Shown: piece after piece, positions 24,068 through 62,780 of the stretch
Position numbering within the stretch: position 1 is the stretch's first letter
Layout: every line of letters begins with the position of its first letter
Source of the DNA: Ulva prolifera
Taxonomy: Eukaryota > Chlorophyta > Ulvophyceae > Ulvales > Ulvaceae
NCBI GenBank assembly: GCA_023078555.1
Contig: CM041200.1
Span: forward strand, 5,050,936 to 5,114,935
Length of the DNA: 64,000 nt
Reading direction: 5' to 3'
Made by a program: the position numbers and the translations under genes
The notes under the pieces: generated by a model
Told to the model about the DNA's origin: nothing
Databases searched by the model: none
What the model saw: only the letters and a program-made list of their open reading frames with translations

Positions 24068-27000
24068 ATGCACGGATTGTGCAGGGCAGACCTACCAGAT
24101 GCTGTCGAGCAAAACAATCCCAACATGCTAAAACTCTTCCGAAGAGACTTTGCTGAGCCCAGAAAACTGGCGAGACCACCTGATGAGCTTGTTGGACCCA
24201 CTGCCGATGCTGACGAATGCCTGGGGCTGCTGGCGGGAGGTGCACCAACGAAACGTGCAAAGCTTGCTGCTCACTTGCAGTCACACGAAGAGATGGCGGA
24301 GATCGTCTCCCGTGTCATGGCTCCTCCAACGCATGTGCCCACCAGCGCCCCCCTTCAGCGGGTACAGGCGTGTTCAGGGGCGGATGCCATGGGCTTGGGC
24401 CTTGCTCCAGGAGCAAGTAAGGAGCTTGCAGCAGTTCTGCCGCACAAGCACGCTGTTAATGTGATAAACGGCAATCAAATCCACTCGAAGCAAACCCTGC
24501 CCATCAGCCCAATCGATGAGGGGCTTGACCTTTTGCATCAAGTCTCACTGGCAGCTCACACTCCACCCTCAAATGCGCTTGCATCAAAGCTGGACTCCGA
24601 TGAACAGCAGCTGCCCAGGCAGCTATCGGACCCCCCCAGTAATCGATCTCTAATCCTTGACACTCCAGAGTCCCTTCTTCAAGATCCCAACTCTTGCAGC
24701 CGCGAAAACTGTGCTGTCACCAATCCGATCCCATCTCCTGGGCAAGCTCGGGCACCCATTCTGAATTCTGCCCAGCCAATGCATGCAGAAGCAGCAGAGC
24801 TGTCATTTCAGGGCTTCAATCCAGGCAGTGAGAAGCTTGCACCTGCATTGGATGCACTCATCAGGGCAGACTCCATGCTGCAGCTGCATGGGCCTGGGCA
24901 TCAACAGCTGCAGTCTGCACCGCCCGCCATCGCTGCAGACGGTGATTTCAGCGGCCGTGTTTCGCCATGTATGACTGATGCAAGCCTCGGTGGGCATACT
25001 GTCCCTGACACTCCAGATGACTCCTTTCAGCGCACCCGTTTCCCTTGGATGGCACAGCTTGGCAGTGGTGTGGCACAGGCTGGTGTGTCAGGAGCACTGC
25101 CAGGACCTGCATCTTGCCACACCTCCCTGCCATTCGAGCAAGGCATGATGCAGCCACAATTTCCAGGTCCTGTCCCATCTGCTCAAGGTCACACGGCTGC
25201 AGCTTCCGTTGATGCAACTTGGCCAGGGGAGGAGCTGTTAGCACCGCCACAGCAGGTGGGGTATGCTAGCAGCGAGCTATGGCATGATGCTTCAGCTACT
25301 GCATCACCCAGTGCCCCAAAGAAGCGGCGCCGGAACCGCAATCAGCACGATATCGATCCCGCATTTGAGGTTGGCCGTCCAGGCAGTGCCATGCAGACCA
25401 TGTCACCTTCCACTGATGGATCGGGTGGGGCTGCTCACCCATGGCAGTCATTAGGGGGTGGCACGCCCAGCACTGCAGCGGACGGGGCTGCTCCGCCGTC
25501 ACTGGAGATGCACGTGTCTGCAGTATATCCTCAGCACGATGACATCACGCCAGTGTGTGTCACATGCGCACCTGCTGCTGGTCCTCCGGGCCCGCTTGGT
25601 CTGGGATCTTCGGGATCCGATGGACAGCCGGGCCATCCATCTGCAGTAGCAAGCCATGTGTCGCCCAGTGCGGCGCGTGAGCGGCAGATCAGTACCTGGC
25701 TGTCAGAGAAGATTGCAACTGTGTTGAAGAGCAAGTGCGCACATACCAACTTGGCATGTATCGGAACATATTTTGAACCTGTTGTTTCATATCATGCTTG
25801 ATGCGCACCAGCGCGAGCTGGACCTCCGGTGAGATCAGCCCGCACGCAGTTCTACATCTGCAGCTGGCTATGCATCACGCGAATATCCACAGGTGTCCAC
25901 CGGCTCGTTGCACAGTCGAGTTGTGCGTGCTTTGATGGATGAGTGTTCATAGCAACCATACGGAGGGTGATCATGTCAGGCTGTCAGCCTGGAGATGCTG
26001 TTTACTGGTGCTGTTTACTGGTGCTGACTGAATGTGTCTGCATGGTGTATGTACCTTCGCACCGATGCTCTTGGTTGCAATTCCTGGTAGCATGCTATAT
26101 GCTGCTCTGCCACGCCATGGCCTGACCTTTCAAGATTGAGCTCCGTTGACTGTGCAGGGTCGGTGGAAATATCGGCGACTCTTTGCTCCATGAGTGGCAG
26201 GTCGAGGTGCTGAAGCAGGACAGGGTGCTGCAAGGGCGCAATGTTGTGTACTGTGCACCCACCAGCGGGGGCAAGTCCCTCGTTGCAGAGATCATCGCCC
26301 TCCACCGCATCTGCAACACCGGAAAGGCTGCGATGCTCGTCCTGCCGTTTGTGACGCTGTGTGACGAGAAGGCCCGGCACTGGGAGAGGCTGCTAGAGTC
26401 GCTGCACCTGAAGGTCTGCCCTGCTCCACACGCCTGGCGCGCCTGCCATATCTCACAGCATCGACAGCCCTGCAGAAGGAGATCTTCTCATGCACATCCG
26501 GCTGTCCCAGCCATGCAGACCTGGCACTGATTTCTTCAGAGCGTTGTGGCTTTCCAGTGCAAACTCACATGAAGTTTCACCGCTGCGATCGCACTCGCTT
26601 ATCCAAGTAGGCCAGTGTGCCTGCGCCGAGCGAACCACATTGTTCTGCATGGCGTTGCAGCCAGAACTCCACCGGGAGCACATTTTCAGACTCAGGAAGC
26701 AGCGTCCGCGCATCGACGGCGCTCATGCGTGCAGGTGCTGCGGCAGTACTCCGGCCTCGGCCGCACAACCGCGAAGATCCCAGATCACACCGGCGTCATC
26801 GTGTGCACGATTGAGAAGGCCAACGCGCTCGTGAACTTCATGACGGCGGAGGGCACGCTCGCACAGAGCATCTCCACGGTGATCGTCGACGAGCTGCACA
26901 TGGTCGACGATGCCGACCGCGGCTACCTACTGGAGCTTCTGCTCACGAAGCTGCGCTTTGTGCTGCCGCCGGCAGACCCGGAGGCGCCGGCGGAGGCCCC

Positions 27001-30000
27001 AGGGAGCAGCCCCGCCGCAGCGCTGGCGCGCACTCAGGGCCTCGTGTCGCAGCTGCTGGGGTCTGCGCAGGCGACGCAGGCCGGCGCCGCGACGGGCATG
27101 CAGCTCATCGGCATGAGCGCGACTCTGCCCAACGTCGAGCTGATTGGCAGTTGGCTGAATGCTGTAGTATATCGCACGAATTTCCGGCCGGTGCGTACAC
27201 ATGCCAGCCCACGGCATGGCAAGCCCTGCCTGCATGCATGCGCAGTGCTGCACCCCCGCAGACTCCACTGTGTGGGACAGCCGGGTGTGGCTTTAGCATG
27301 CACTGCTACTGCTGGATGCAGCTCCTCTCAGCCACAAGCACATGCGAGCGTGTGCCCGCAGCTGTAGTGCTCGGCGCTGAAAGCTGACTTTCGGTGATCG
27401 TCGTGGGGTTGCGTGGTGGAGATTGCCACATACGTGTGGAGCCTTTGGTGGGAAGCTGGCTGTGGCATAGCTCTGACTGGTTGTGGCCATGGGCATGGCA
27501 GGAAGGCGGGCGCTGTTGAGGCACGACGGTGACCCCTGTGACCGCGAGTGCAGGTGGACCTGCAGATGAGTGTCTTGAGAGGCGACACCATTCACAGCCT
27601 GCGGGAGCATGGCGGTGATGATGGCATCGATTGGCAGGAAGGCACTCTGCAGCTGCAAGGCTGGGATGAATCAGGCGACCCTGCACATGTGAGGCGGGAC
27701 ACTGAGGACCACCTGGGCTTCCTGGTCAACCAGACAACCTCGGTGTGCCCCCAGGCTGCCTTCACAAGATCACTAAGGCCTCTTGACTGCCTGACACCTG
27801 CATCGCGCGATGTGGCCACTCCTCCCTGGCGGCAAGCATATTCCTGCATGTACGTCAAGGTGGAGTGAGATCAAGGTACCGTGCTGATTACATGAGCAGT
27901 CGAGCTCCCACGCTGGTAGGCGCCTCTTCTGAATGATCGGCCTGATGGCTCAGCACTGCTTGACCTCCAGCTAGCGAGCGTTGTGTTCACATGGTTCAAT
28001 TCAATTTCGAGTGTGCAGGAGCACAAATCGGTTCTCATTTTTTGTGGCACCCGGCCGAATGTGGAGCACACAGCGTCCGAAGTCGCACAGATGTGCGAGG
28101 CCGGCCTGTTCACGATCAGCGAGCGAGCCACGGTGTTCAACAGCGGCAACTCCGCCTCGAAGCGCGCCCAGTTCCTCGCTGACCTGCCCAGGGCGACTCC
28201 GCCGAATCTGCTGCGGTGCCTGCGTGTGGGCATAGGTTTCCACCACGCTGGTGCGTCCTTTATCTGCCCTCCTTGCACAGACTGCTCTGCAGACGTGCGG
28301 TGTCGTGCTGTGATACCATTACGCATGTGCACACATATGCACATCACACGGAGGCGAGTGAGCGCCCACATGCGTGTTTCAGCCGATGGTTCCTGCCAGA
28401 CTGAACTGACTCACCTGTGCTGACAGCTGTGCCGGAGTCCGAAGGGGGGCTGCCTGCCGACACAGCTGGTCAGCAATCAGTGTGCCCCCTCTCGATCCGT
28501 TTCTACAAGGCCAATAGCGTTGCAGAATGTCGCATTTTGCTGTAGGCATGCCTGTTGAGTTTCGGAATGCATGCGAGCACGGGTTTCGCTCCGGCGCCAT
28601 CTCGGTGCTCGTGGCCACGTCCACGGTCGCGACCGGCATCAACCTGCCGGCTCAGCGGGTGATCGTGCGCGACCTCTTCCTGGGGCAGCGTGGCAACTTG
28701 CTGGACTCGAGCAGGATGCGGCAGATGGCCGGCCGTGCTGGGCGATCAGGCATCGACAGCAAGGGAGAAGCCGTGTTCATTGTCGGGCGCAGGGAGCCGC
28801 CCTCGCGGCTACAGCACACCATGAAGCTTCTTGCTGCACCGGTGCGACACCTCCATAGCCAGGTCGGGGGTGCTTGGCACGCGGCTGGATGCGTACCCCT
28901 TCATTGCAGGGTCGCCATCAGCAGGTCATGCCTGTGGGATGTCTCCGGTGTGTGCAGTTTGCAATCCATACCCTGCGTTCTGTTGCCATCGGGACCGTCT
29001 GAGGAGTTCTGAGCCGGCGCAGCAGAGGAAATCGTCGAGTATTATGCTGCGGCTGTGCCAGACAGTGCACGATGTCTAGCTGTTTACAAACGTCGGACCA
29101 TCAGCAACACGCGAATCTGCGCCCGTCACAGTAATCACAATTCCAAACACATGCAATTGAAATCTGCAGCATCCAGGTTGTGATGTTAATTCTATACAGC
29201 TATAGATGCACTTCACTGGCACCCAGGTTCGTGTGTGGACCGGCACCACAGCCGCACACTCGATGTCATCCACGTCCTCACTGTATGCACCAACTGTGTG
29301 CAGCCCAAGCCGGTGTCCAGCTGCTTGAGCGCAGACAAGCGCGGCATGCAGCGGCTGATGCTCGAGGTCGTCGCCTCGGGCTGCGTGCGCAGCCCCGCCG
29401 ACGTGAAGCGCCTCATCGAGAGCACCCTCCTCTCCGCGGAGCACAGCCAGGGCTCTCAGTGGCAGGAGAACGTCGCGCAGGGCTGCATCGCGGGCCTGAA
29501 GGTTCTCGGCAGCCAGGGCTTCCTCGCCTGGCAGCAGGCGCCGGACGGCAATGAGGGTGGCTACAGGCCGCTGAAGCTCGGGCTCGCGGCGGTCGCGGCG
29601 AGCCTGTCCCCGGAGGCCGCGCTGACGATGCATGAGGACGTGAGCAGCGTGTCGAGCGCGATGAACGTGGAGACGGACCTGCACCTGATGTACCTCGTCG
29701 CGCCGGCGGAGCCCAACCCGGCGCTGCAGTGGTCGCAGGTGGCGGCGGCGCTGCAGAAGGTCGCGCGGCAGGTCGTCGTGCAGCGCATCTGCAAGCTGTC
29801 GGGGATCAACCTGGAGCGGTTCCTGCAGAAGGCGTCGTGCATGCGGCGGGGCTGGGCGCCGGAGGTGCGCTTGCTGCACGCCTGCCTGCTGCGTGATTCA
29901 GCCCTGCAGGTGCCTGTGTGCAGTGCATAATCCCACTCCCCTGCATCTGCACGTAGCAAGCAGTGACACAGTGGTGGCAAGACAAGGCGGTGCTTTATGT

Positions 30001-46175: not shown

Positions 46176-46182
46176 TATATAA
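46176..46182 (+). promoter_or_regulatory. TATA box of secreted-protein gene 1
   Basis: TATATAA 144 bases upstream of the start codon at 46326. The paralogous gene has a similar element at the equivalent place. Confidence 0.6.
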
Positions 46183-46325
46183 GCAGCAGGCTGGTGCATT
46201 TCATCATTGTTTCCCACTGCAGCCAACCACCACTACTACGGTACACAGTTGACTGCAAGCACAAGACCTCTTTACCAGCCCTGCCCAGCTTTGTTGCAGC
46301 CTGTTCACCTCAATCTGTGAACAAG

Positions 46326-48591
46326 ATGATGTACGGGTAAGACACCACTCGCAATGTTTTACAATGTCCTGCTATAGTGACTGCAGCATACCTAGCACTC
46401 TGAGGATCTCGAATGAGCCCGTCAGAGGCTGCAGTAGCAGGCATTGCGTAGCAAGCATCACTCTCATTGGTCAGAAGCCTGAGCTGGCGTAGTCCAGTTC
46501 AAGGTCCCCGGAGGGATGGCCACAGTGGCCGTTTGGAGCAAGCTGTAAACAGAATTCTTGGCCCTGCATCCACTTAATTGGTCGGGCACACGCGGCCACC
46601 TGCATGCAACCAGCATCCGTTGTGACCCTCCTGTGGTACCCCCTTGCAGCTGCAGCAGAGTTCACTATTTCGTAGCGTCCCTCGTACACGTGACATCCAG
46701 CTGCAGTGTCCATACATGTGCACATGTATGCACCTACAGGACCTTCCATCAGCCACATTGCACTAACCCGCGATCATGCCATCACCAATGCCAGCAGGCA
46801 CTCTGCAGATCCATGATTGGTGCTGTTACCCTGGCGCTCGCTGCGTCCGCTGCCGATGCTCGCAAGAGCTTCGATGAGATCTCCGCAGGCCTCAACGACA
46901 ACGACAACGGCTACACGAGCAGCCACACATCCAACTCTGGCACGAAGCACGTCAGCGCCTCGGTCCGGTGCTCCTCGTCGGCGTGGGCCGACAGCTACAA
47001 AAGCCATGAAAACAGCTACATCTCGGCGGGTGCGGCCCCCCTCCCTCACCCTCCACAATACGTCGAGTCTGTAGCGTTGTATACTGTGGCCACTGCTTCT
47101 CTAAGCCACCCTGACCACTCGATCTCCCCCGCGGCTCGCGGCAATCTGCTGCGAGCCTGTCGTGGCTAGTCACCTGAGCCAGCTGCTCAACCTCTCCACC
47201 CCTACTTGCCTCACCACCATGCATGCACGATTCGCCCCTGCGACGACGCTTTGTTCCCTGGTACCAGAAAACAAAACAGCATGAGCGCGAGATTGCACTC
47301 TGAGGTGGGGTGATGTACAGTTGTGGACGTGATCGCGGACGTGTGCGACCCCTACTGGTACGGTGATGTCGCCTCAGCCAGGAAGAAGATGTACGGCTGG
47401 GCCTCTGCCTACGCAAGCGTGCGCCCCTGCTGCCTCTCCCCACGCCGACCGCGCGAGGCATCTGCATGCCGGAACTAGAACAGTTGGCCTGTGTTGCGCG
47501 AATGCACACAGCACGTGGACCTGATGCCGCCACCACCTCCGAGCATGCCCGGCTTTTGCCCACTCGGTGCAGTTCAGCTGTTGACCACCTAGACCCGCTT
47601 CAGTCGCAGTTCACCACGGATCTCCGGTGCCGGCGACGCGCCGGTGCTCAGCACGCCGGCCTGAGCTCGATCGAGGCACTAGCCCATGCACACCCATGCA
47701 AATTCTGTCAGCAAGACAGGGAGTGTGATGATGCAGGCGGCCGCGTCTGCCCATGCTGCGTGCACAACCCGCGTCCGCGGCGGCGGCAAGGCCAAGGGCT
47801 GCGCGTACTCCGAGGCCGACTCCTACGCCGCCGCCTCGGCCTACGCGACTGTGCACGCCTCCGCATCTGCCGAGGCGTTTGCTGACTACTGCAACTGCGC
47901 CAACGCCGAGGCCTGGTCCTTCGGCGATGCGGACATCTTCCTTGAGCTCTGGGCCTCTGCATATGCGGAGGCCACGGCCGCCGCCTGCGCTGAGGGTGCG
48001 CCTCCATGACTGTTGCATGATCTTTTCCAAACCGAATGCTGCTAAACCCTGTCTGCAGACAGAGCATGGAGCTCTGCTTTAGCCAATCACCCAGCCCGCA
48101 TTCGCGGGCGCCTAGCTCCCAGGCCTGCTGCAGCAGGACCGGCAACCGTCACAAATGTACAGTCGGCGTTGCACAGCCTCTTTGTGAAGCGGTGCGATTT
48201 TTTGGTGTGAATCATGCTGGCCACGTCGTGCCGGACGACAACAGAACTGACCCGTCAGCCTTGCGTCCGAAGTGCAGACACCATATGCAAAGCCAATCCC
48301 ACAGCGGGAGCAGCGGGGTGACGGGCGGTGTGGGGTGCAGGCAACCAGCACTCTGAGGCTTCCGCATACGTCAGCTGCTACGCCGACATTATCGCCGAGA
48401 CCTTTGCGAAGGCGGCCGCCAGGGCTTCCGCGGACGCCGGCTGCTACTATGGCTACGCCGACGCGCACGCCCGCACTGAGGTCGAGGCGATCGTCGATGC
48501 GTACGTCACCAACTACGAGAGCTGCTACATCTCTGAGCACGAGACGGGCCTGGCCGAGGGTGACGGCGACGGCGGCGCACACACCGGCTCC
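46326..48591 (+). CDS. secreted Ala/Ser/Cys-rich protein, paralog 1
   Basis: Function unknown. Five exons join in phase: 46326-46336, 46809-47029, 47321-47418, 47737-47995 and 48341-48591 (280 codons); a terminal exon after the poly-C intron was not located. The 11-base first exon encodes MMYG and is spliced onto a signal-peptide core (MIGAVTLALAASAADA). The mature chain has conserved RCSSSAW and VCDPYWYG blocks. Two long Ala-rich segments follow with repeated AYA/AEA spacing (SAYATVHASASAEAFADYC, ANAEAWSF) and about ten cysteines in positions shared with the paralog at 57584. The pattern suggests a disulfide-bonded helical extracellular or wall protein. Start choice rests on the matching micro-exon in both genes. 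Confidence 0.8.
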
Positions 48592-48596
48592 GTAAG

Positions 48597-48597
<1 letters not shown>

Positions 48598-48640
<43 letters not shown>
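48598..48640 (+). repeat. 43-base poly-C tract in intron 5
   Basis: Uninterrupted run of C starting six bases after the first base of the exon-5 donor (GTAAGA). The paralog has a 10-base C run in the same position after GTACGC. The G-rich complement could form a G-quadruplex. Confidence 0.97.
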
Positions 48641-50524
48641 TGAGACCACACCCTGAGAGCAATTGTGAAGTCCAGTCGTCACAGATGTCATCGATTGATA
48701 TGTAGCCATTGTACCACAGCTGCCATACCAATTCACATCTGCTGCATGATCTCAATGCGAGCCTACTTGCTGCGGCCGAGTGTTCGATGCCTTGTCAACC
48801 AAGGGCGGGTCTCGCCCCTGCGGGGGCGATGATGACACTGTGGCGTGCTTGTTGTTGTGAATGCAGGTGTTGTGTTGGTGTGTCGACGCAACGCACTCGT
48901 CGCCCACCGAGGCAGCCCCGGGATAGATGCGGTGTTGCAGCCGCAGCCGCAGACACGGTCGTGTGACAAATGTCATGTTTTAAGCCGTTTGCGCCGTGCA
49001 GAGCACCCACTAGAAGGCCTGGACGTGCATGGAGACACAGGCAGAGCGAATCTGCTGTGGTGATTGAGGTGCAGCTGCCGGACAGCGGCTGCCACGGCGG
49101 CCCACATGCCTTTCAAGGATACTTGGCATGTCTTTTGCGGCACGATAGATCGGATCTTGAGGTCATGATTGCGAGTTTACATGTACAGAGCGGGTGGAAG
49201 AGATGAGAATAAGCGCAGTGGACGCGCCAGGAATTGCTGGTGAGATATGTGCCTTCAGACAATGGCTGCGACTGGTCTACGTCTAGGAACAGAGGCGCTG
49301 CGATGAATATGAGTTTGCTGATATGTCGTTAGATCAGCTTGATTGTTCAAGATGGTCAAGATGAAGTTGTAATTCAATGCTTTCGACATCCGTGCTTGGT
49401 TTGTACACTTGTGCCTGAATGTATCGTCTTGTGATTTATGCTTGTTGACATCACTTCGTGGCTGTGATTGAAAGTGCATGCTGCTGTGCAGCTGCAATGT
49501 GACGGCGCTTGATCCCGCTTGCAACCATTCATGAGCTGAGGACGGGACACGTGCCTGGTCCCTTGCTGCCTGGTAATCACGTAGACGCCAAGGCTTCACC
49601 AGGTACACGTGTCGTGCTTCTTGAAAGTTCCATCGATAGCTCCGTCGATGCACTCTAGAGCCAAAGATCTTTGGCGTTATTAAATGATAGCATGCACTTC
49701 AGCACTCAGTTCCAGTTGCAGCAATGTCCCTGTGGACGACAAGGCATCAACTGGCTAGCCACAGTCACCCCTAGCCACAGTCACCCCGATTCGAGCCACC
49801 ATGCGAATGTCCTGGTATACACAGTCAGATCTATAGATCTGACTCTTGACTAGTTGTGGCATGCCGCAGGATGCCCACGCCACTCACTGACTGTCGGCTT
49901 ACGGGTTGAGTTGCTCACAGTGAGAACACAGCAAGCTCATATGTACATACAGCATGACCTTACTGCCTTATACCATCATTCCCATGCAAGGCACCACCCT
50001 CTTGACCTCGTATGCATGCAGTGCAAGGGTCAGTGCATGCACATGCAGCCAGATCATGAAGCTTACTGCCCATGCCAGTGGCTACCAGTGCACCGGGTGC
50101 GGGGTGCGGGACCTGGCCGCGGGACCTAAGGTCCCACGGGTGGCGTTGTGGCCACCGGGTTGTCTGCAGACCTGGAGGCTTCCTGCGTGCTAACGGACTG
50201 GGGAAGTGTGTGTATGACTAGAATTCGAGAATTTGCCATCGGCCACATACACCTGCACAGCTGGTGGATTAATCAATTGAGCCAGCACCAGCCGTGGTTC
50301 GCACTGACCTTGGCAGTGGGCCGGTGCATCCATGAGTGCACAAGCACGTGCTGGTCTTTCCCCACAACTGCGGACATGCTTGGATCTGGCTGTCGTGTTC
50401 AGGAATCATTACAGAAACGTGAACAGGCCCACACGATCACAGGACAAGGATCTCTTGAAAGGCAGCTCTATAGACTCTCCCTGATACCAGTGTCGTACCG
50501 GCGTGCAGGCTGCTGCCCCTGCCT
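48641..50524. other. downstream flank, no separate gene seen
   Basis: Should hold the terminal exon of the secreted-protein gene. A 16-base tandem duplication (CTAGCCACAGTCACCC) lies near 49755-49787. Nothing else supported apart from the palindrome listed separately. Confidence 0.4.
49823..49844. repeat. 22-bp perfect palindrome
   Basis: Perfect inverted repeat with no loop, arms AGTCAGATCTA and its complement. Confidence 0.95.
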
Positions 50525-50533
50525 CACTGGCTT

Positions 50534-50624
50534 TAATATTGCATTTGCTTGTGTGGGTCTGTGCTTGCGCTGCTTGCTTCTTTCGCGGTGCTGCATGCCC
50601 GCCTCGCCGCATTTATCCCTGTAA
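50534..50624 (+). mobile_element. SINE-like copy with 9-bp target-site duplication
   Basis: 91 bases containing TTCTTTCGCGGTGCTGC and ending in TATCCCTGTAA, the family 3' end. CACTGGCTT flanks it at 50525-50533 and 50625-50633. Confidence 0.68.
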
Positions 50625-51276
50625 CACTGGCTTGTCCTTGCGACACAGGCTGGCTGCACAGGCCAACACGCACCCACACGTTCCCCAGTCCGGCTGGACA
50701 GCCTGAGGGACCTCGTGCCCTAAGGCGAAGTGCAGTGCCTGCTCACGCGAGAGCGCAAGGCTGTCTCGGAATCAACAGAGCCGTGTGTAGCTGTGATCAT
50801 GAGGTGTGTATGCCTCAACAGGGGCTGCCTGCAGCTGTAGCTGATTGACTAGAAATAAGAGGTGGAAATGGAAGCATCCCACCTAGCAACAAGAGGTCTC
50901 TGCACGGGATGGTCTGCGCCGGTGTGGGTCGATGAAGGGCTTGAGGGGCAGGGGGAGCGAGCTGCGTGCGACATGGCCTTGTTGACGGACACAGCCTTTG
51001 AAGGCGACGAGGCAGAGGTGAATGCGTACGGAACAATGCCGCGAGAGCTCAATCTTATGACACGGCATGACGTGGGCTGATTCTGCACGACATCCCGAAG
51101 CCAGGATCGCGTGTGCACTCCACGTGGAGATCTCTAGAGCCGGAAGATCTGGAGAATTGTCGTGGCCGAACACGTATATTTTCGTGAGAGGGCCTGGAGG
51201 ACGCGATCCTGCCGGACTGAGTTGTGAGTGCGGTTGTAGTGTTCGTGTGTGTGTGAGTGTATGTTGCAGTTGCTTC

Positions 51277-51327
51277 GGATGGGATTCGGTTTCGGTGTTT
51301 GTTTTCTCCCGTTCACTCTTTTGTAAA
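51277..51327 (+). repeat. dispersed repeat, copy A
   Basis: About 50 bases (GATTCGGTTTC to CACTCTTTTGTAAAT) recur at 51831-51878 with one difference. The sequence just upstream (51189-51217) matches the repeat beside the GT array at 12121, so these belong to one dispersed family of unknown type. Confidence 0.7.
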
Positions 51328-51371
51328 TATTTTCGTGAGATGCTCTATGGAATATTCGAACTGGCTAGCGC

Positions 51372-51473
51372 AATAGTTACAAAGCACAGAGGCCGGGCAG
51401 CGAGCCGTTGCTAGGTTTCACACGCAAATCCACTCACGCAGTCATGGCACTTGGCCGGGTACGAGCACGTACC
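51372..51473 (-). mobile_element. 102-base LINE 3'-end insertion with target-site duplication
   Basis: Matches the last ~100 bases of the LINE at 16076 in the same strand orientation (GTTACAAAGCACAGAGGCC on the plus strand). A 7-bp repeat, CTAGCGC, flanks it at 51365-51371 and 51474-51480. Confidence 0.78.
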
Positions 51474-51547
51474 CTAGCGCTACAGTAGTGTGTCCAGCCG
51501 CGGCATATGCTCGCGCGCACGCGCGGAATGCACATCCCGGGGGACGT

Positions 51548-51577
51548 ACCTGCCTTGCTTGCTTTGTCCTTGAGACA
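51548..51577 (+). mobile_element. 30-base SINE-like 3' fragment with 17-bp target-site duplication
   Basis: Only the last 30 bases of the element (CCTTGCTTGCTTTGTCCTTG) lie between perfect copies of CACATCCCGGGGGACGT at 51531-51547 and 51578-51594. An extreme 5' truncation. Confidence 0.8.
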
Positions 51578-51830
51578 CACATCCCGGGGGACGTGTGTTA
51601 CCAGGACAACGTCGGAGAGCCAGGTGTAAGGGCTGTCAAGTCAGGAGTCATCGAAATAGAGATCTGTCTGCATAACTCTTGACTTGTACAGTCCTTACAG
51701 TCCTTGCACCAGCGCTAGGTGGCACCGCAGAGCACCCCACACCGGGTTTCCACGCGACCAGATCCGGAAGCTCAATCATGCAACCAAAACACGCAAGTCC
51801 AAGTGCGTGAGTCATGATCACCACCAGCAG

Positions 51831-51878
51831 ATTCGGTTTCAGTGTTTGTTTTCTCCCGTTCACTCTTTTGTAAATTAC
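51831..51878 (+). repeat. dispersed repeat, copy B
   Basis: Second copy of the 51277-51327 sequence, about 550 bases downstream in the same orientation. Confidence 0.7.
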
Positions 51879-53956
51879 CAGCACTCTCGGGGGGTATGCT
51901 TGTATGCGTTGCCGTGTGAGTACGGTCGCGTGCCAGCGGAACCCCATGTCGTGAGATATTATTGTATTGTGTTTGTCACCGCCTGCGTCCAATCGCGATC
52001 GTCTGCCACACTCGTCTGCCACACATCGATAGATCTATGGCCACCGCGACCGCGCTTGTGCGCACAGTGAGTTCGCAAGCCCTCCACCTGGCAGCATACA
52101 TGCATCAATTGATTCAAACACGATGGCTTTTGTTGAAATGTGACTCAGCATCTAGAAACATCTGGAAGCTAGTATGTGTCACGGCCTAGAGAGGCCTAGA
52201 CAGACCCAGACCTAACAGAAAGATCTGGACACACGGATGTGTGTATGCTGTCTAGAGAGCAGTATATCACAAGCATTAGGTCTGGTATGTGGAACATATA
52301 TAAGCACGCGGCGGTGCTTGTGTTGTTCACCTATCGCAACTCTTCGCACTGTTGGTCCGCTGTAACACCGATACAGACCAATTTTCAACACTGTTAACAA
52401 TTGACCCTCGCGAGGCCTCGCGGATAGACTCGTGTGTGCCAGGTTTCAGTCGCTGCAGGCATGCGAATTGCCGCAGCGCGGGCGTCATGACGGTCGTGTT
52501 CGATAAAGTGCTAGCGCTTCGACGCGATCTCGAGTTCGCAGCTAAACAGTACCCATCGAATTGCAAATGAGGAATCTGGCGCTGCATATGGCGGCTCACT
52601 GGCAGAATTCACAGGCGGGGACTGTGCTGCAGCGTGCTGATTGGGCATATACCAAGCTGGCAGCTGATTGGATGTCCACCGCGAACTCTGACCGCCCACC
52701 GGGCCGGCGGCGGCTTGCTCCCGAGAGCTTGCAATTTCAAGCATCCATGTGTGCGCGCGGAACCGGCGGGAGGGCTGTCCACACGCGTACGGGCACGCAT
52801 CTGCACAGATTTCTGTGGCCACGCATGAGCTGCCAGTGCACGGTGTTATTTGCGATGTACACCGAAGGATATTGCATATTGCGACGGGGAATTGACCGTC
52901 ACTCACGCGCGTCAGCACCCTCGTTGCTGTCGAACCACCCACATGTGTACACGATGTCAGTCAACGCGTCGACACTATCTTTCTGCGATGGCGACTTTGC
53001 GAACGCTCAGCTCCGTATGGGATATACCATGTCTTACGAAACGAAACATGGGCCTGTAGCTGCAGCTAGCATTTGTCGCTCCACTTGGGGTACCGCCAAC
53101 CCTCTCGTTCCTCGCTGCACTAGTATGGCCTTGTGCAGTCCCAAGCTGTCTCAAACATCGGTGCATGCTTGGCGCACGCGCGGCGGTGTTGCGCTAGTAG
53201 CTTTGCAAAGCTTTGCCACGCTTTGACAAATGTGGCGCCGCGCGAGCGCACGTGACCTTGCACACCTTCCCAGTACCCAGGAATCTGCATATGATATCAG
53301 GCACCCGATTGGCGTGAGATGACGCAATGGCCATTCTTGTCGCGTACCGGCGACCACGCTCGCTCGTGTGATCAAAAGCTTGGGATCGCATCCGCATGTT
53401 CGATTTGGCTTGTACATCGCGTTATAACGGCATGCGGCACACCCCGGCTACGACGAGCGCTTCGGCTGCACTGTTCATCCATGCTATCTCAATGGTTCGT
53501 GCCACGTCATGCCTGGCGCGCGCTTTCTGGCTACCTGTGCTCGTCTGCACTCGTATGTCTTTCTGCGGCGCTGATCAGATCGACGCTTGGCGCGTGTTGG
53601 GGTCGAGCATCGTGAGTCGACCCACATCGATATCGATATGATACAAGATCTAGATGTCTCCCCTGCGATTGTGACCATGCCTAGTGCTTCATTCACCAAC
53701 AGCTGCGCGCGGACGTGGCTTTGGTGAAGTGTATATCGCGAAGGTGACGACATGGGTACAAGAGCTGCCAACCGTAAGAGGAGGTACAATTTCCATCACG
53801 GCAGGATGTTTCTGATCGTACATGGGACACGCCACAGGGCACTCTGAAGCCGTGAATGCACAGTGGATGTACCATTCGGACCAAACTTCCACGGCTGGGA
53901 GGCGTCCGGAGGGCTAACACAACGTGTCTCAATCTCCGAGACAGATACCGCGTTAA

Positions 53957-53985
53957 ATCCATCTCGCACGGGTGGCGAGATGGAT
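53957..53985. repeat. hairpin, 11-bp stem and 7-base loop
   Basis: ATCCATCTCGC pairs with GCGAGATGGAT around ACGGGTG. Confidence 0.9.
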
Positions 53986-54508
53986 CTCGCTACCACATGT
54001 GGCCACATGCCGGCCGCAATGGTGAAAGGCCTGAGTTCAAGGCCGAATCGTCGAACGCGCATCGTGGTTCTGACTTTGTGACCCAGGGAATCATGTGATG
54101 GGCTGCTTCCATAATCGGGCTGTGACGGCTGCACAGATCGTGACCGTACCGCGGGTCGTTGCACGGGACAGCGGCTGTTCAGTAAGTAGACCGTGCAGCT
54201 GCTGTGAAAAGTGAATTCAATAGCTGTAGGATACGCATTCCGGCACGGGAGTTATTCGCATACCCACACACCTAGTGCTCTTGCGCGTGGCAAATGCTTG
54301 ACACATGCTGCGATGGCCATGGTCCCCGCATCAAAACCCATGGCCGGGAAGGTACCACCAACAGAAGATATGACATACGGGAGTAACTCCTAGGCGTTTA
54401 CGCCCGTGCACACGTGACGTGATGTCGGTTAAGCAAGTCCTTTGCAGCCCCAGGCGAAGGGGCGCCCAGCTGGTGCAGATCATTGTGATTCCCGATGTTG
54501 CTGGTCGA

Positions 54509-54575
54509 CGCGTCCGCACATTCTCTGTGCGGACGCGGACGCTGGTATTACTCACATTCTCTGTGAGTAATACCA
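54509..54575. repeat. two adjacent hairpins with the same loop
   Basis: 54509-54537: 11-bp stem (CGCGTCCGCAC) around ATTCTCT. 54543-54575: 13-bp stem (TGGTATTACTCAC) around the identical ATTCTCT. Both stems are perfect and share only the CAC/GTG next to the loop. Confidence 0.95.
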
Positions 54576-55147
54576 TCCTACAGCAGCGCCTGCTTGGCTT
54601 GTCTGGTTGTGCTGTTACACTGGCGCTCACACGGAGTCACCGAGTCGAGTCAAATTGGCTCAGCACCTGGGCGGGCATCAACAGGCATGCAGGCCGGCAC
54701 ACCGTCCTTGCCAGTGTCTGTGGGCCGCTGCAGTCCACAGCATCCGTTTGCCACAGATGCATGATTCATGTGGGCATCACTCACAAGGATTTTGGCTGGC
54801 TAGACCTGAGGCTGGACCTGATCTACCGGCCAAGCCCTCATGATGAAGGGTGAACACGTCTGATCAGCTTTGGCATTGCAGCTCAGGCACTGCGACACTG
54901 CATGTGGCAAAAAGCATGCGATCTGCTCCCAGTCACAGACGCTTCAATGGTATCCCTACACGCAAGCAAGGCTCTAGACTGGAACACTTTGTCACTTTAT
55001 GCCTTGGCTGCCTGCCATCCCTCCTGGAACCTCTCGGCTGTTGCTCACCGGCCAACAGCACCAGGCCGTCCCTCCACGGGTGCAATTATAGCCTGTGTGA
55101 CTCTATACACGGCATGCCAGCTATCGGACAGAGTGTGATACATACTG

Positions 55148-55243
55148 CCGGTGCTGGGTGAGATATTCGTGGGTGTCTTGGTGTTTGCTTCGTCTGCTTG
55201 CTCCTCTCGCGGTGCTGCCCGACTTGCTGCCTTTGTCCTTGTA
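55148..55243 (+). mobile_element. SINE-like copy with 8-bp target-site duplication
   Basis: 96 bases ending CGGTGCTGCCCGACTTGCTG and CCTTTGTCCTTGTA. ACATACTG flanks it at 55140-55147 and 55244-55251. Confidence 0.68.
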
Positions 55244-55806
55244 ACATACTGTGTGTGGCATGCCTGCTTCAGACACACACCTTTTGCCGGCCACTGGCAG
55301 CGACCAACACTTAGCTGCATGGGTCCAAGCTGAAAGCATGCATGGGGGTCGACGTCTCACAGATGTACCAAACTACTCGTAGCACAGTGTACGTTGATTG
55401 GGCATTGTGCTGTGGACGTGATGGGTGTGATGGCGGGGTGTGTGTGTGCACCTCAGGGAAGCCCCTCAGGGGAACCGAGAGAAAGACATTTATGCCCACC
55501 TCACATAGCACAGGAGGAGCCCCTTGGAGCTTCGTGCGGTCATCTGGAGGAGCTCTTCAGCCAGGAGGTGTGCCCCTGAGGCATGCGGGCTGCAGTCATC
55601 TGGATTTGTCAAGATTCAATCAGGATACGTACATCCAAAGTTGCTTTCCTCCACACTCAAAATCCACTAGTGGATGGTCAGAGCGCACACGGCTGCCCCG
55701 GAGTCGTGAGCAGGGCGGCTCACGGCGCCGAGGCGGGCCCGGATAGTGTACACCGTCCCCCGCCGCACCTCACCAACAGCGTTCACACACTTAGCGCTCA
55801 ATTGTC

Positions 55807-56015
55807 TGGCTGTGGGCCGTGGGGTCTGTGCGTGCGTGTGTGGGTGTGTGGGTGTGTGCTTGGCGCGCCTGCGGATCTGTGTCGTTTGCTGCGCCGGTGA
55901 TGGGTTTCCTGGGCGTGGTGGGTGTCGCGTGCGTGGGTGGCTGGGTGTTTGCTTCGTCTGTTTGCTTCTTTCGCGGTGCTGCCCGCCTTGCTGCCTTTGT
56001 CCTTGTTACACACTG
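55807..56015 (+). mobile_element. SINE-like element, longest copy with a clear duplication
   Basis: 209 bases between perfect 14-bp repeats AGCGCTCAATTGTC (55793-55806 and 56016-56029). The duplication extends to about 22 bp with one mismatch. The body is G/T-rich with GCGGATCTGTGTCGTTTG near its middle, then the family 3' end TTCTTTCGCGGTGCTGCCCG and CCTTTGTCCTTGTT. No coding capacity. Confidence 0.8.
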
Positions 56016-56029
56016 AGCGCTCAATTGTC

Positions 56030-56058
56030 CTCCTTGCCACCTTCCTTGTGACACACTC
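56030..56058 (+). mobile_element. possible second SINE-like 3' tail
   Basis: Immediately after the duplication of the preceding element comes TTGCCACCTTCCTTGTGACA, a diverged version of the family 3' end. Confidence 0.4.
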
Positions 56059-57397
56059 ACAGCTCAACCGCCGGCTGTGCTGCAGCCCCACACCGGCGCA
56101 GAAACACATCGCAAGAGCCCAGCGCCCTTGCGACAACACAGGTCACATGTGCAAGGGCACCATGCTTATGTAATGTGTCGCGGGCCTCAGCAAGCCGAGG
56201 GCGATCGAGGCGTGCCTGTAGCCACAGTGCAGCCTAGCTTATAGCCATCAGCATGTACGAGGTGTAAACAGAACTGTGCATGCACGTGTCCTTTCAATTT
56301 CCGCATGCTCTGTTGAGACGTCTCCGTCCATAGACGTATATTAGCACACATATAGGTGAACTGCCTGCTGTAGGTATCTAGTGCTGTAGCAGTGTGTACA
56401 CATCATCAAACAATCCCCTCTTCGAATTTGGCCTCACAAGGAAACAAACTCATGACGCAACCTGCCAGGCTTCCTGCAAGGGATGCATCTCCACCACAAA
56501 ATGCAAGTTGTATGAACTGAAAATATGCACGCCACATCTGAAGTTGCATACACGTGTATAAATACATGTCCTTTGTAACTACATGTATATACATGTGGTG
56601 TCTTCACTGGTGTACCGATGCATAGGGTACGGTACAGCGCTGACAAGCATCAGTTTGATGATGTGGCAGTCTAGTGATTCCAATTGCAGCTGCCATGATC
56701 ATCGATGGCTGATTGGTATTGATCACACATGTGTGCACTTGCATGTGAATCCCTGAAGGTCATGATCAGGGTCGCCATGTCAGAAGACAGTATCTCCACG
56801 ATTCTTCGGAGATATCTGCAGATTCAGTTGCGCAGGCACAAGCTGCACGATTAATCACACAAGACTTTTGCTGGCAGCTGCTGATGCGCGCATGCGGGGT
56901 CCGGTCAAACAAGCCGTGCACAAGTATTTGGGTCAGTCATCGATGGATATCCTGCGGTGCTCCCGTGCATGCACGGCTACTTCCGACACCGGCCGGTTCC
57001 GCGGCGCCGTCAGTATTGTTCTACATGGGTACACCTTTTAGGGTGGGTACACCTTTTGGGACATGCACCGTAGCTTGCTAGCGCCCACCAGGCGCGCCAG
57101 GTGGCCTCGGCTGACTCGGAGGTTCTCGGCGTCAGGTCCAGAATTCTGGCCGGTGGCGTGGCCTGCCGGCGCCCACGCAGCGCGCGGAGGTTCGCCCTCG
57201 TTCGAATTCGCACGTCGATCCGTCGAGGCCGCACGTGGGCCTCCCCAGCCACGAGAAGCCCGGTAGCCGGCCTCTGCGCATGCATGCGCCAGGCCAGCTT
57301 TCGCACCCGGAGGAGCTTGGCGGGCGCCCGTTTCGCTGCGCTGGAGCTTGAGCTTCCCGAGCTCGGTTGCAACAGCTGCGCCGAGGCACGGAAAACA
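56059..57397. other. intergenic, upstream of secreted-protein gene 2
   Basis: Contains an 18-base tandem repeat (GGGTACACCTTTTAGGGT) at 57027-57060 and a 16-bp palindrome at 56581-56596. No gene recognised. Confidence 0.45.
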
Positions 57398-57405
57398 TAT
57401 ATATA
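57398..57405 (+). promoter_or_regulatory. TATA box of secreted-protein gene 2
   Basis: TATATATA 179 bases before the start codon at 57584, matching the layout of paralog 1. Confidence 0.6.
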
Positions 57406-57583
57406 GGCTTGCAGCCGCACCTTAGCTATCAACAACACCGCATGCCTCTACGTTTCGCTGATCCAACAGTACATTATCCCCGGCTGTTTGCACAACTATC
57501 CTGCAATTAGAGCCTGTCCAGATCTCGTGACTGGATCACCACCAGTATCATCCCAGTTGAACAACTCTCACAAGTCTTCTACA

Positions 57584-60534
57584 ATGACTGTCGGGTGAGC
57601 TTCTGTCAGGCTGTGGTCCTGCTGCATGCTTTGTTCTGTTCATGAAAGCCAATGTTAACATGTGATCATGTTCGAACTTGAAGCGGCAATTGCATGATCG
57701 ATATCACTGTCGTCTTGACCTCAGGCAGCCCAGCTCGAGCAGCCCCAGTCACTGGTCCATCCAGCGCCTGCAAATGCGATGCACCTCGCCCTGTTTCATT
57801 CGAGCTTTGTGGCCAGGCGTCACGGCTGCCGACGTACATTTGCAGCAGTGGACTGGTCCCGACTGTCCTGCCGTTGCGAAGCTCGATCCAAGTGTGTGCA
57901 CGCGTATGCAGCACGTGATACGAGTATGCAACACGTGTTACGGAATTCCGCGGAAGCCTCGCCTTTAGAACGGCACGAAACTCTGTGTATTGCGGGCGGC
58001 ACCACGTGTTTCCCCTTCGTGGCCTGGGAACCATGATAGCAGCAATCTTGCGAGTTCCTGGTGTTGTGGTCAGAGATGAATTCGGCCTAGAGCCAAGCAG
58101 CTCAAAGCGCCGCAGCTGGCGCTCTCCATCTCTTGCATGATGCATATAATTTGAATCTACATATCTTCAGCTGTTCTACGGCGAGTGCATGATGTTACTG
58201 TAGATGCCCGCATGCGCACCGGTACCGCGTCGTGAGTACTTTTGATACTTTTGATGCGCACCTTGCAAGCGTTCAAGCTTGCCTGTTTGTGTCACTGCTG
58301 CATGCTGGCCGTGGATCAATGAATGCTTCGCAAGCAGGCTTATGCGATGCAAGGCTTTGCGCTTCCGGTCCTCTTCGCGCGCTCTCTCAATCACGTCAAC
58401 GCGACACTGTGGCTGAGCGCAATCATGGTTGCGTGAATTACGTGTGTCACCGCATTCCGTACCTCGGAATATGCGCTCCGAGACGTTGCACGCGAGCGTG
58501 GATGCTGGGCCTCTAGTACACCTGTAGGAGACACCCACACCGCGCGCCAGCCTCATGACGATTTGCCACCTCATTTTCAGGCCCGATGCATATTCGTAAG
58601 CCCTTGGCGCCTAAAGTACCAGGTAGCGACGACGGTGGCATGTAACATCGGTCCAGTGTGTAGAAATGGACATCAGCATGAGGTTCCACACTGGTTCCAC
58701 CTTGCTTGCTGGCTCACACGCTTCACCCACCCAAGCACCGCTTGAACACGGATTTTTTTTTTTAGGCAGTACTTTTCCTGCCTCTGTCGCATCCTCGACT
58801 GCTGTCAGGATGCAACCAGTGGGGAGGTCCCTGGTCTGACCCAGGGAGCCACATGTACTCCATGAATGAATGAATGAGACCGTTCCTCTGTACGCTGCTG
58901 ACATGACCTCTTGCCCATGCAGGACCCTCGCAGCCGTGGCCACCGTCCTGCTCCTCAGCGCCAGCTGCGCAGATGCTGCCAAGCGAAGCTTCGACGACCT
59001 CTCCAAGGGCCTGAACACCAAGAACCGCAAGAGCACAAAGGGTAGCTTCAGCAAAAGCAAGACCAAGAGGGTTAGTGCATCAGCCAAGTGCTCCAGCTCA
59101 GCCTGGGCATCTCAGTACGAGAGTCACATGGACTCCTACATCCAGGCTGGTACGTGTCCACTCTAGTAGCTTTGCATATAATACAAAAGCTGTGAGCATA
59201 CATGCAGCTGCCAGAACCGCCGTGCAGCGCACATATGCCATAAATCTTGCATTTGCATCCCACTGCTCCTGCTGTCTCTGGTTTCAGCCTACGTTCACAT
59301 CGAAGCATTGACGGGGTGGTGTGCTGCAGTCGCGGATGTGGTGGCCGGGGTGTGTGACCCCGCCTGGTACGGTAGCCCGGTTGCTGCTAAGGAGACCATG
59401 CGTGGCTGGGCCTCTGCCTACGCTGAGGTGCGCCCTCCTGCTTAATTGCTGCGCACACCCACTGCATTGCGTGCCTGCCTGCCCCCACTGGGCAGGCACC
59501 AAACAAGGGATTCAGCAAGTGGGTAGGACCTTGGTTGGGTGCCTGCCAACCCCATGCTGCAGGCATACAGTTCATCCTGCACCCCCACTGCAAGTCTCCG
59601 CAGCATGCTGTTTAGACTACCTAGTTGTTACTGCTGTGCTCCTGGCAGATGGTCATGCAGTGGCTCGGAACTCTTATGCGGACAGTGCCTGATGTCTAGC
59701 TGCCTGCACTGCGGGGCTGGCAAGCAATCTCTGTGTTTCGGTGCAGGCTGCTGCCTCAGCGACAGCAGAGTGCCAGACGAAGACGTCTGGAGGCGGCAAG
59801 GCTCAGGGCTGCGCCTACTCCGAGTCGGACTCGCAGGCTGCCGCCCGCGCCTACGCCGAGGTGCACGCGAAGGCCTCCGCCGAGGCGTTCGCCACGTTCT
59901 GCTCCTGCGCCAACGCCGAGGCCTGGTCCTTCAACGAGGCCAGCATCTTCCTTGACCTCTGGGCTGAGGCCTACGCTGAGGCTGAGGCCGCAGCCTGCGC
60001 CTCTGGTGCGCTCTCCCTGGAGTCTGATCCTACATTGCATTGTATCGAGCCAAACAAGTGTTTGTGGCGGCCTTCTGCCCCAACGCCGCATGCTCTTTTT
60101 GTGCTGCGATCTCTTGAGTCTTTCTGTGCCTTGTACATACATATGTGCTCCGAGAAACATTCTCGCGCGCACCAAGCCTGGGCTTCTGCTCTGTTGTCGC
60201 TGCGGCATTTGCAAACCAGTAGCTGGGCCTGGGAACCGGTCACGGCCATCTGAGCATTCCCCACGACCTGATCTCGCATGCAGGCAACCAGAAGTCGTCG
60301 GCGGAGGCATATGCAAGCTGCTACGGCAACGTCATCTCCGAGACGTTTGCCTTTGCTGCCGCAAAGGCCTCCGCGGACGCCGGCTGCTACTCGGGCTACA
60401 ACAACATTGATGTCCGCACTGACGTCGAGGCTCGCGTAAAGGCCGACACGAACGAGTACTCCAGCTGCAGCATCAGCACATCAAAGAAGGGTCTCTCCAA
60501 GGCCGATGCCGATGGCGGCGCCAATGCTGGCTCC
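57584..60534 (+). CDS. secreted Ala/Ser/Cys-rich protein, paralog 2
   Basis: Paralog of the gene at 46326. Exons 57584-57594, 58923-59149, 59330-59427, 59747-60005 and 60284-60534 (282 codons before the unplaced last exon). Exons 1, 3, 4 and 5 have exactly the same lengths as in paralog 1 (11, 98, 259 and 251 bases) with the same phases; exon 2 is six bases longer. The MTVG micro-exon joins TLAAVATVLLLSASCADA, a clear signal peptide. Then come a Lys/Ser-rich segment (KNRKSTKGSFSKSKTKR), KCSSSAW, VCDPAWYG, FCSCANAEAWSF and AGCYSGY blocks. Intron 1 is long (1,328 bases). A candidate last exon is at 60976-61007 (VSAREAYEFV). I do not recognise the family. Confidence 0.82.
57904..57943 (+). repeat. 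20-base tandem repeat in intron 1
   Basis: Two near-identical units starting GTATGCA (57904 and 57924), each containing CACGTG. Confidence 0.7.
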
Positions 60535-62780
60535 GTACGCCCCCCCCCCTACCCAATGCTGTCACTCTGCTAAACCACATTGATACAGCACTTGCTTTTG
60601 CAAGTTTGTCTGTCTTGCTCAAACCAGGCAGAGGGTTCTGGTGCTTTGCCGCCCCTTTTGCCCCGCTTCCATATGATCCACAACACCCGAACCATGCATT
60701 GTCTCTCTGCTGTGGATGTCCTTGAAGGTCTGGCCGGCCGCTCGGGCCGCGTGGGGGTGTATCCAGGCGTCTCCTGCTGAGTGACGTGTCTCAATTGCAT
60801 TGATGCATGGAGGCACACTCCGGTCCAGCGCTGTCTGGACACTTCTCTGATTGCCAAGTCCGTTCATGCAGAAGACCCGCCATTAGGTGCCAATGAGGAT
60901 AGCCAGGGAAGCGTGGAGAAACAACGAGAAATGCGCTAGCCTCCCACACAACGCGTGCGGTGCGTGGGCGCAGGTGTCTGCCAGGGAGGCCTACGAGTTT
61001 GTGTGAGAATAAGGAGGCTTGCAATCAAGGCGGCCGTTCAGAATGCCTGTTGCTGGCCTCAGCATGCTGGCAGTTTCGATGCAGCATGATCGTGCTCGAT
61101 CACATCAGGACAAGGTGGAACTGTTGAGGAGCTGCCGATTTTGAGCGCCGCTCAAAATCGGCGGGGAGGGGTTGGGATGCAACCACCTGCAAGGCAGTAG
61201 CTGAGGGCAGAATGCTGTCATAGAATGCGGTCATAGCTGTGCTGATTTATTGGGCACATGCCCGTTTTGTTTTGGGTAGATTCTCAGCGAGATTTATATC
61301 AGGCAGAGCAGAATGCCATCCACGACGTGGACTTAAGGCAAGCTCAGTAGCCCTGCGTGGCAATCGTTTCCAGATTGTCCGTCATACAACACACTGGCCA
61401 GGTATTCATGGACCATTTTAATGTGCAACTTACCAGCCACCCATGGCCATGTCAATGCCGTTGACGTTCATGTTGACACTGTCCACGCCTCATGCACTGC
61501 CACCTCTGCATATCCGTGATTGTATATATACTTGGCCCAGTCCCACTTGGCGACTTTCACCACACCTGCCCGGTTTTACCACCACCCCTAACCACCACTA
61601 CTTTTAGGAAAAAAAACGGCCACGGCGTCCGACAGCAGCAGCGGGTCCTGATCTCAGTTGGAGGAAGAAACCCAATTCTTCACCTGGGCTCACCTCTTTC
61701 ACGGGCGATCGCCACTTCAGAGAAGTTTGCAAAGTTTGCAAAGTAACAACAAAATTTGCAAAAAAGGGTCTTCTAGCTACCTAGACCTGGATACCTCCCT
61801 CGCGCCCACCTCCTCGAGGGATCAGCTGCATTCTGCGTGACCTGCGTTACATGGGGTCTAGATCGAATCATTCTGATATTGATTGGGTCAGTCACCCCGA
61901 AAATCATGATGAACTGTACCTAGCTGAGTACCTAGAAAACCCAGCGATACATGTTACATGTCGATGCAGTTAATCTAGTACGGTACTTTGTAGGGAACCC
62001 GCGACACATGCATGGCTGAATATCATTGACTGACCACTAGCACATGGGCAGCTGGCCTAGGTGCAGCCTGAGCCATGGCCAGTGGGGAGTTGCATCACCA
62101 CATGCATCAATCGGAAGTTCGGTATGCTGTAATTACACTGTGTGGGCCTCAAGGAAGGATGCAGTTGTGCAATGCTGAGTGTCCCTCAGCTAGGCATGGC
62201 AGCAAGGCAGCAGATCGGAGTCTACTTTGGGCACAGTTCAGAGGGTCATGAATGTATATGGAATGAATGTGGTCAGAGGGTCAACGCCAGCGGAACGGAG
62301 GCGACATCATCTCTCAGGAATGCCTCTGTTCTGTGGCGCATCGGCCCTCTGGTCAGGGCATGTCTGCGTCGATGGCCATGCACTGGAGCATGCAGCTGAC
62401 CTCAACTTGGCTTTGCGCTTGCTATGTCGGAGCTCCAGCATGCTGCAGCGGGGCACAGCCACAGCCACAGCCGGCAGCCCGCACCAACCCTTCAAGTTAA
62501 GGACCATGACCCGCGGCGGCGATCGAGCTGGCCGATTGCTCACACTGGCCACTGACACCTCTATGGACGAGGCACTGCAGACCGGCGACCGATGCGGTGG
62601 GTGTCTGGCTGGTGCAAAGAAGGCCACGCTGCGAGGTGGTGGGCTGTGCTGGCAGGGTGCGCTGTGGGTCTGGGGGTGGGGATGGGGCCTGGGGCGGCCC
62701 CCGGCCGTCGAGCGTCCCGCATGGGCGGCCTTGGGCGGCAGTGTGTTTGGCGCGGCCCTGCCGTGAGGCGACAGGCATTG
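60535..62780. other. intergenic, no supported gene
   Basis: Presumably holds the last exon of secreted-protein gene 2. A small TATATATA near 61524 is not followed by a recognisable gene. Confidence 0.4.
61134..61162. repeat. 29-bp near-perfect palindrome
   Basis: 14-bp arms (GCCGATTTTGAGCG and its complement) around a single C. Confidence 0.93.

Follow-up and report, generated by a model that had tools for sequence, protein, structure and literature searches.

A 64,000-base stretch of the Ulva prolifera genome (assembly GCA_023078555.1, contig CM041200.1; G000:C5:5050936-5114935), hereafter the window, carries two paralogous genes, gene 1 and gene 2, whose products are built around a cysteine-rich domain of about 200 residues with alanine on alternate residues. 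We propose, at a probability of roughly 0.5, that the products of both genes are secreted and have a structural role in the cell wall, the extracellular matrix or a secreted adhesive of Ulva, a reading that draws on the sequences of the genes and of their relatives. The first-pass annotation of this DNA had suggested an undescribed algal extracellular protein family; the family is algal, cysteine-rich, probably secreted and without a library match, but that description was too narrow, as relatives occur at some 80 or more places in the assembly (88.9 Mb, 44 contigs) and in two architectures. A review describes the glycoproteins of the Ulva matrix as 'essentially uncharacterized' (PMC8307928). 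Tens of probably secreted, disulfide-rich and patterned proteins would be concrete candidates for wall or adhesive components of Ulva. The genus is a common fouling seaweed, and the alternating pattern of the domain poses a clean structural question, helix or strand.

Two genes with a common cysteine domain

Both gene models were rebuilt from the window sequence and look like real genes. Exon lengths are 11/221/98/259/251 bases in gene 1 and 11/227/98/259/251 bases in gene 2, the intron phases are 2,1,0,1 in both, and all eight introns have GT-AG borders. Gene 1 opens with 11 coding bases, ATGATGTACGG (46326..46336, on the + strand like every feature of both genes), followed by a phase-2 intron. 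Its exon 2 (46809..47029) carries the remainder of the putative signal peptide, the start of the domain and Cys 1; exon 3 (47321..47418, 98 bases) carries CDPYWYG and Cys 2, exon 4 (47737..47995, 259 bases) Cys 3-7 and CANAEAWSF, and exon 5 (48341..48591, 251 bases) Cys 8-10. Gene 2 likewise opens with 11 coding bases, ATGACTGTCGG (57584..57594), and a phase-2 intron, and continues with exon 2 (58923..59149, 227 bases; remainder of the putative signal peptide and Cys 1), exon 3 (59330..59427, 98 bases; CDPAWYG and Cys 2), exon 4 (59747..60005, 259 bases; Cys 3-7) and exon 5 (60284..60534, 251 bases; Cys 8-10). A profile hidden Markov model (HMM) matches exon 4 of gene 1 at E 1e-35 and that of gene 2 at E 1.6e-33, values obtained with a seed that contains both genes themselves. 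The architecture proposed in the first-pass annotation is largely confirmed by these models. The equal exon lengths of 98, 259 and 251 bases recur in both genes, the first introns differ widely as described (472 bases in gene 1 versus 1,328 in gene 2), the protein identity that had been called moderate is 62%, and the named sequence blocks are kept together with all ten domain cysteines, to which gene 2 adds one further cysteine within its putative signal peptide. Across the joined coding sequence the two genes have a nonsynonymous divergence (dN) of 0.37 and a synonymous divergence (dS) of 1.08, which indicates that their reading frames have been kept by selection.

Ten cysteines are conserved in the domain. 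In an alignment of 25 rows, near-copies included, Cys 1-8 are kept in every row, and Cys 9 and 10 are kept in all 11 rows whose frame reaches the end of the domain, the other 14 frames exiting the coding sequence earlier. Superimposed on this cysteine framework is an alternation of alanine. The ratio of even to odd lags between alanines lies above all 2,000 shuffles in 15/15 sequences. These tests are not independent, since 13 of the sequences are homologs of one another and a profile built from such sequences retrieved the remaining two; taken alone, gene 1 and gene 2 each pass the shuffle test. Alanine pairs at lag 2 occur at twice the shuffled number in the 13 sequences, and those at odd lags at about half. 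Aromatic residues (F, W, Y, H) follow a longer period, being enriched at lags 4, 8 and 12 (1.6, 2.4 and 2.0 times expectation) and depleted at lags 3, 7 and 11 (0.57, 0.65 and 0.74), and pairs of an aromatic with a following Glu are enriched 2.4-2.9 times at lags 2, 6 and 10. The underlying motif is roughly A-aromatic-A-Glu/Ser/Thr. Prolines are few, from none to three per domain sequence.

This periodicity fits two kinds of secondary structure. Period 2 would suit a strand whose alanines share one face, and period 4 would suit a helix that carries its aromatic residues along one side and its acidic residues along the other. In the hydrophobic-moment spectrum the maximum (2.5) falls at 180 degrees and a minor increase (1.2-1.3) is seen at 90-100 degrees, and Chou-Fasman averages lean slightly toward helix (1.06-1.13 versus 0.94-1.01). 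The 'long Ala-rich helices' described in the first-pass annotation are not borne out, as alanine on every second and aromatics on every fourth residue are not the usual pattern of an amphipathic helix. We also considered a single continuous solenoid, which the parity of the alternation across the domain had seemed to suggest. It was dropped because independent segment junctions are few and the parity flips at the ends in gene 1 and after Cys 6 in the paralog L042.

Sequence searches of Pfam, NCBIfam and PDB gave no described family as a relative of the domain, as the first-pass annotation had anticipated. No Pfam family exceeds its gathering cut-off (best DUF459, E 0.011, 15.6 bits against 27.2), no NCBIfam model matches the gene 2 product, the one product scanned, and one PDB sequence search returned a single match at E 2.9. 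A profile of 13 domain sequences gave six PDB matches to E 1, all to transcription or ribosomal proteins. The best of these, Transcription elongation regulator 1 (E 0.0021), was judged compositional and not a relative; its alternating-alanine part, which we take to be the Gln-Ala repeat of TCERG1, would share with our domain the alternating alanine only, and TCERG1 is a nuclear protein. Scans of viral and prokaryote contigs found no relatives, the eukaryote comparison being that with PDB chains. Literature searches covering titles and abstract openings of the leading matches gave no account of the Ulva family, and a Ulva linza transcriptome paper (PMC3532339) holds no words beginning 'collagen', 'adhes' or 'extracellular'.

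Two well-known groups of structural proteins offer partial parallels. Silks and spidroins have in common with the Ulva proteins alternate alanine, a fixed aromatic spacing, many copies and, for the Ulva proteins probably, secretion; the Ulva domain differs in its ten fixed cysteines, its shortness and its lack of Gly-Ala blocks, and a relation in sequence was sought through Pfam and PDB sequence profiles. The pherophorins and hydroxyproline-rich wall glycoproteins of volvocine algae are likewise large secreted families of algal matrices, whereas our 13 domain sequences have no Pfam match to any family of that sort up to E 0.1 and few prolines.

A clustered family and its triplet-bearing sister subfamily

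The two window genes belong to a family spread over the genome. The plastocyanin of this assembly, with its two exons joined by eye, matches PDB 7pcy, the plastocyanin of Ulva (Enteromorpha) prolifera, at 98 of 98 residues and is less similar to 1iuz, that of Ulva pertusa, in keeping with U. prolifera or a very close relative. The gene 2 product gave 123 matches at 95 places. With the domain of another member as query, 68 places reached at least 100 bits, two of which have a stop within the matched part. A paralog from contig C2 (C1 to C10 are our labels for contigs, C5 being that of the window) then added 13 places that score at least 55 bits and include gene 1 and gene 2. The stricter count is therefore 68 + 13 = 81 places. 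The union of strong and weak matches comprises 109 places, in which weak matches may be compositional and which we do not take as the size of the family. Both counts are lower bounds because only the best candidates were scored, and the lists of 95 and 109 places hold one row per place, further exons of the same gene being left out. The loci are clustered, with 39 of the 109 places, weak matches included, falling within about 0.6 Mb of contig C3 (1.34-1.97 Mb). In 13/13 paralog pairs measured (gene 1 with gene 2 and 12 chosen pairs) dN is below dS.

A tree of 24 sequences, several of them on long branches, splits the family into two subfamilies with full support, L056 being counted with its subfamily. 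Within it gene 1 sits not with gene 2 but with L006, a gene at C5:4.88 Mb, at weak support (92/81). The sister subfamily to that of the window genes is marked by a stretch of (Asp/Asn)-Glu-Gly triplets, here (D/N)EG, ahead of the domain. Between 12 and 49 such triplets occur in 21 of 23 domain-bearing reading frames, near-copies included; the remaining two are L056, without triplets, and L009, of the multi-exon kind. The longest runs, defined as X-E-G with X being D, N, H, A, E or K, extend over 5-24 triplets. L052, the sole such protein scanned, matches the Pfam family Collagen (PF01391) at E 2.5e-11 (43.6 bits against a cut-off of 27.2). The likeness to collagen thus lies in glycine at every third residue before the domain, at a score above the Pfam cut-off; unlike collagen, whose triplets are rich in Pro/Hyp and can form a triple helix, the runs are without proline by their X-E-G definition and are mostly acidic, the cysteine domain matches no collagen model, and gene 1 and gene 2 have no (D/N)EG stretch at all. 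Pfam Collagen matches elsewhere in the genome (C6:464980, C10:1945560, C5:9243131) lie outside the list of cysteine-domain places and are either other triplet-repeat proteins or simple-sequence matches.

Introns are fewer in the (D/N)EG genes than in the two window genes. Exon 2 starts with G after the acceptor in 14 loci of this subfamily, and the start codon appears to be split by an intron, AT before it and G after it, in part of the subfamily. A search for the donor pattern GGTRAG ahead of the (D/N)EG genes gave nothing convincing for a start exon. In 6 of 10 distinct (D/N)EG genes with at least 900 bases upstream, ATGTRCGY lies 60-260 bases past a TATA box, against 0.005 expected in mononucleotide shuffles, a pattern recognised by reading the stretches past TATA boxes and derived partly from the same genes. 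The four misses are L042 and the near-copies L032-L034, the last three having the motif but no TATA match. Among (D/N)EG genes with less than 900 bases upstream, one of four has both the TATA box and the motif.

Several further observations concern the copies themselves. At the very start of contig C1 a (D/N)EG gene array (C1:4011-18214), in part with a 6,185-base period, repeats an array at C1:1256249-1276637. The loci of the C1 arrays are L023, L024, L028-L031, L032-L034 and L036-L039, and the reading frames of L023 and L024 are identical. This repetition may reflect a recent subtelomeric duplication or an assembly error, and a few of the copies may be an assembly effect. Two pairs of matches, C8:230261/C8:240162 and C2:1094452/C2:1100848 (the latter weak), are oppositely oriented, separated by some 6-10 kb and equal or nearly equal in score; they are perhaps recent inverted duplications. 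L048-L051 agree at 91-98% over roughly the first 65 bases of exon 2, and their first introns have short scattered matches only. Finally, L040, L043, L044, L046, L047 and L058 match the profile weakly and are more distant proteins, either multi-exon or rich in proline; L043 and L058, both of those tested, carry the same alternating-alanine pattern, and the group possibly hints at a wider superfamily.

Proposed role and competing explanations

The structural role that we propose would proceed from secretion to cross-linked packing. The N-terminal hydrophobic stretch, as judged by eye, would be a signal peptide that is later cleaved, and five disulfides would lock the mature domain. Its regular small-residue positions could let adjacent segments pack closely, as interdigitating helices or silk-like strands, and so form a rigid module. 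In the sister subfamily the acidic (Asp/Asn)-Glu-Gly stretch could in addition bind divalent cations and tie the protein into charged wall polysaccharide, gene 1 and gene 2 representing the form without this stretch. According to the review cited above, how boric acid and divalent cations make ulvan gel is not understood (PMC8307928), and Ulva spores are reported to anchor by secreted glycoprotein adhesives (PMC11966768). High copy number and the clustering of the loci were counted as support for a structural role.

A bolder version of this proposal, which we consider speculative and on balance improbable, holds that the A-aromatic-A-Glu repeat with its five disulfides is a new fold and a main structural material of the wall or the spore adhesive in Ulva. 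In the larger subfamily this fold would be joined to a polyanionic, collagen-like stretch without proline, which divalent cations would turn into a gel. Were it true, green seaweeds would have in this fold their own equivalent of silk or collagen, made from tens of clustered genes.

A number of observations weigh against a structural role of gene 1 and gene 2. Within the periodic pattern, aromatic-to-Glu pairs are enriched 1.9 times at lag 4 as well, and large hydrophobic residues taken together are not depleted at lags 3, 7 and 11, where their ratios are near 1. An AlphaFold model of exon 4 alone, made for the two sequences of gene 1 and gene 2, is all helix; the structure prediction named as a check by the first-pass annotation was thus carried out for exon 4, and its helical outcome is unusable because the predicted local distance difference test score (pLDDT) is 51. 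Secretion itself is probable from the N-terminal sequence, judged by eye. The window genes lack the acidic stretch, and for this reason their role may differ from that of the other subfamily. Clusters of secreted, cysteine-rich proteins confined to one lineage are, moreover, also typical of defence or recognition proteins.

This last point leads to an explanation that we regard as unlikely, in which the genes encode secreted defence or recognition proteins (antimicrobial, lectin-like or for self-recognition) under a birth-and-death process driven by microbes or mates. The concentration of places on C3, weak matches included, would be expected of such a family, as would the richness in disulfides and the identical or near-identical recent copies. 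However, dS exceeds dN in all 13 pairs, so that diversifying selection is not apparent across the domain as a whole, the regular alternation and the acidic stretch look structural, and the domain scores below the Pfam cut-off for every family. Less likely again is an adhesive of spores or gametes, or another stage-specific secretion, that would be cured by disulfide and cation cross-links. The many near-identical copies and the TATA boxes would suit strong, timed expression, and attachment of Ulva spores through secreted glycoprotein adhesives is reported (PMC11966768), but no feature specific to adhesion is present in the sequence.

The possibility that an intertidal alga secretes these proteins to bind ice or to protect itself against desiccation we consider very unlikely. 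Some antifreeze proteins are similarly alanine-rich, regularly spaced and disulfide-rich, yet no regular Thr array was noticed by eye, and the six PDB matches of the 13-sequence profile (to E 1) include no antifreeze protein. Scarcely credible, and already disfavoured, is the absence of any functional family, with a low-complexity repeat expansion of GCN-NNN type spread by tandem duplication: the strong period-2 composition and the many clustered copies would suit it, but dN is below dS in all 13 pairs, the cysteines are fixed, the splice phases are common to gene 1 and gene 2, and the start exon is shared with two paralogs.

Start exon, last exon and neighbours in the window

The 11-base start micro-exon that the first-pass annotation had proposed for both genes is upheld and extends to four genes. 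L015 and L018, two of five further multi-exon paralogs, both on contig C2, have a start exon of the form ATG-NNN-NNN-GG directly followed by the donor GT, again of 11 bases and phase 2; the L018 donor, GTATGC, was read by eye and lies outside the scripted pattern. For gene 1 an alternative donor at 46331 is possible, giving a 5-base exon with the phase unchanged. A TATA box precedes each of these start codons at a similar distance. In gene 1 it is TATATAAG (46176..46183), 150 bases ahead of the start codon, in gene 2 it lies at 57398..57405, 186 bases ahead, and in L015 and L018 the distances are 142 and 176 bases, so that the four genes span 142-186 bases. In gene 2 another ATG precedes the start codon, at 57442, 44 bases past the TATA box. 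Among the other paralogs, no such start exon was found in L012, L010 has no TATA box in about 900 bases upstream, and for L006 the search covered the 320 bases available upstream.

At the other end, the gene ends proposed in the first-pass annotation, 48591 and 60534, are probably not the true ones, as by analogy with the paralogs the genes probably extend through a further intron after exon 5 into a tiny last exon. A GT directly follows exon 5 in 14/14 sequences compared (gene 1, gene 2 and 12 paralogs), a test that is not blind because the cuts were placed at a shared Val codon. The short last exon is preceded by a TGCAG or TGTAG acceptor. DNA similarity between paralogs backs it in L007, L009 and L008, where it encodes RTVHK, RTVHKK and KSIHRKKKL, and in L052 and L054, where it encodes QAADHI and QAADHTP, each with a stop following; in L012, KSVHKGTK and a stop were placed from peptide likeness alone, and in the remaining 6 of the 12 paralogs a last exon was not identified. 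The candidate last exon of gene 2 (60872..60886) would encode KTRH and a stop, like those of the paralogs. That of gene 1 (49002..49013) would encode STH and a stop, by analogy with the RTVHK, RTVHKK, KSIHRKKKL and KSVHKGTK endings, and is the least certain piece of the model. In gene 1 the exon-5 donor is directly followed by a run of 43 C (window 48598-48640); the start of this intron is C-rich in several paralogs too, and in L008 it is all C over 24 bases.

The window also holds exons of other genes, at 329-952 (- strand) and 26615-29927 (+ strand). They comprise a dihydrouridine synthase exon (Pfam Dus, 5.5e-30), a DEAD-helicase exon and an HTH_61 exon, the last with a sub-threshold POLQ_helical match as well and probably part of a DNA polymerase theta-like gene.

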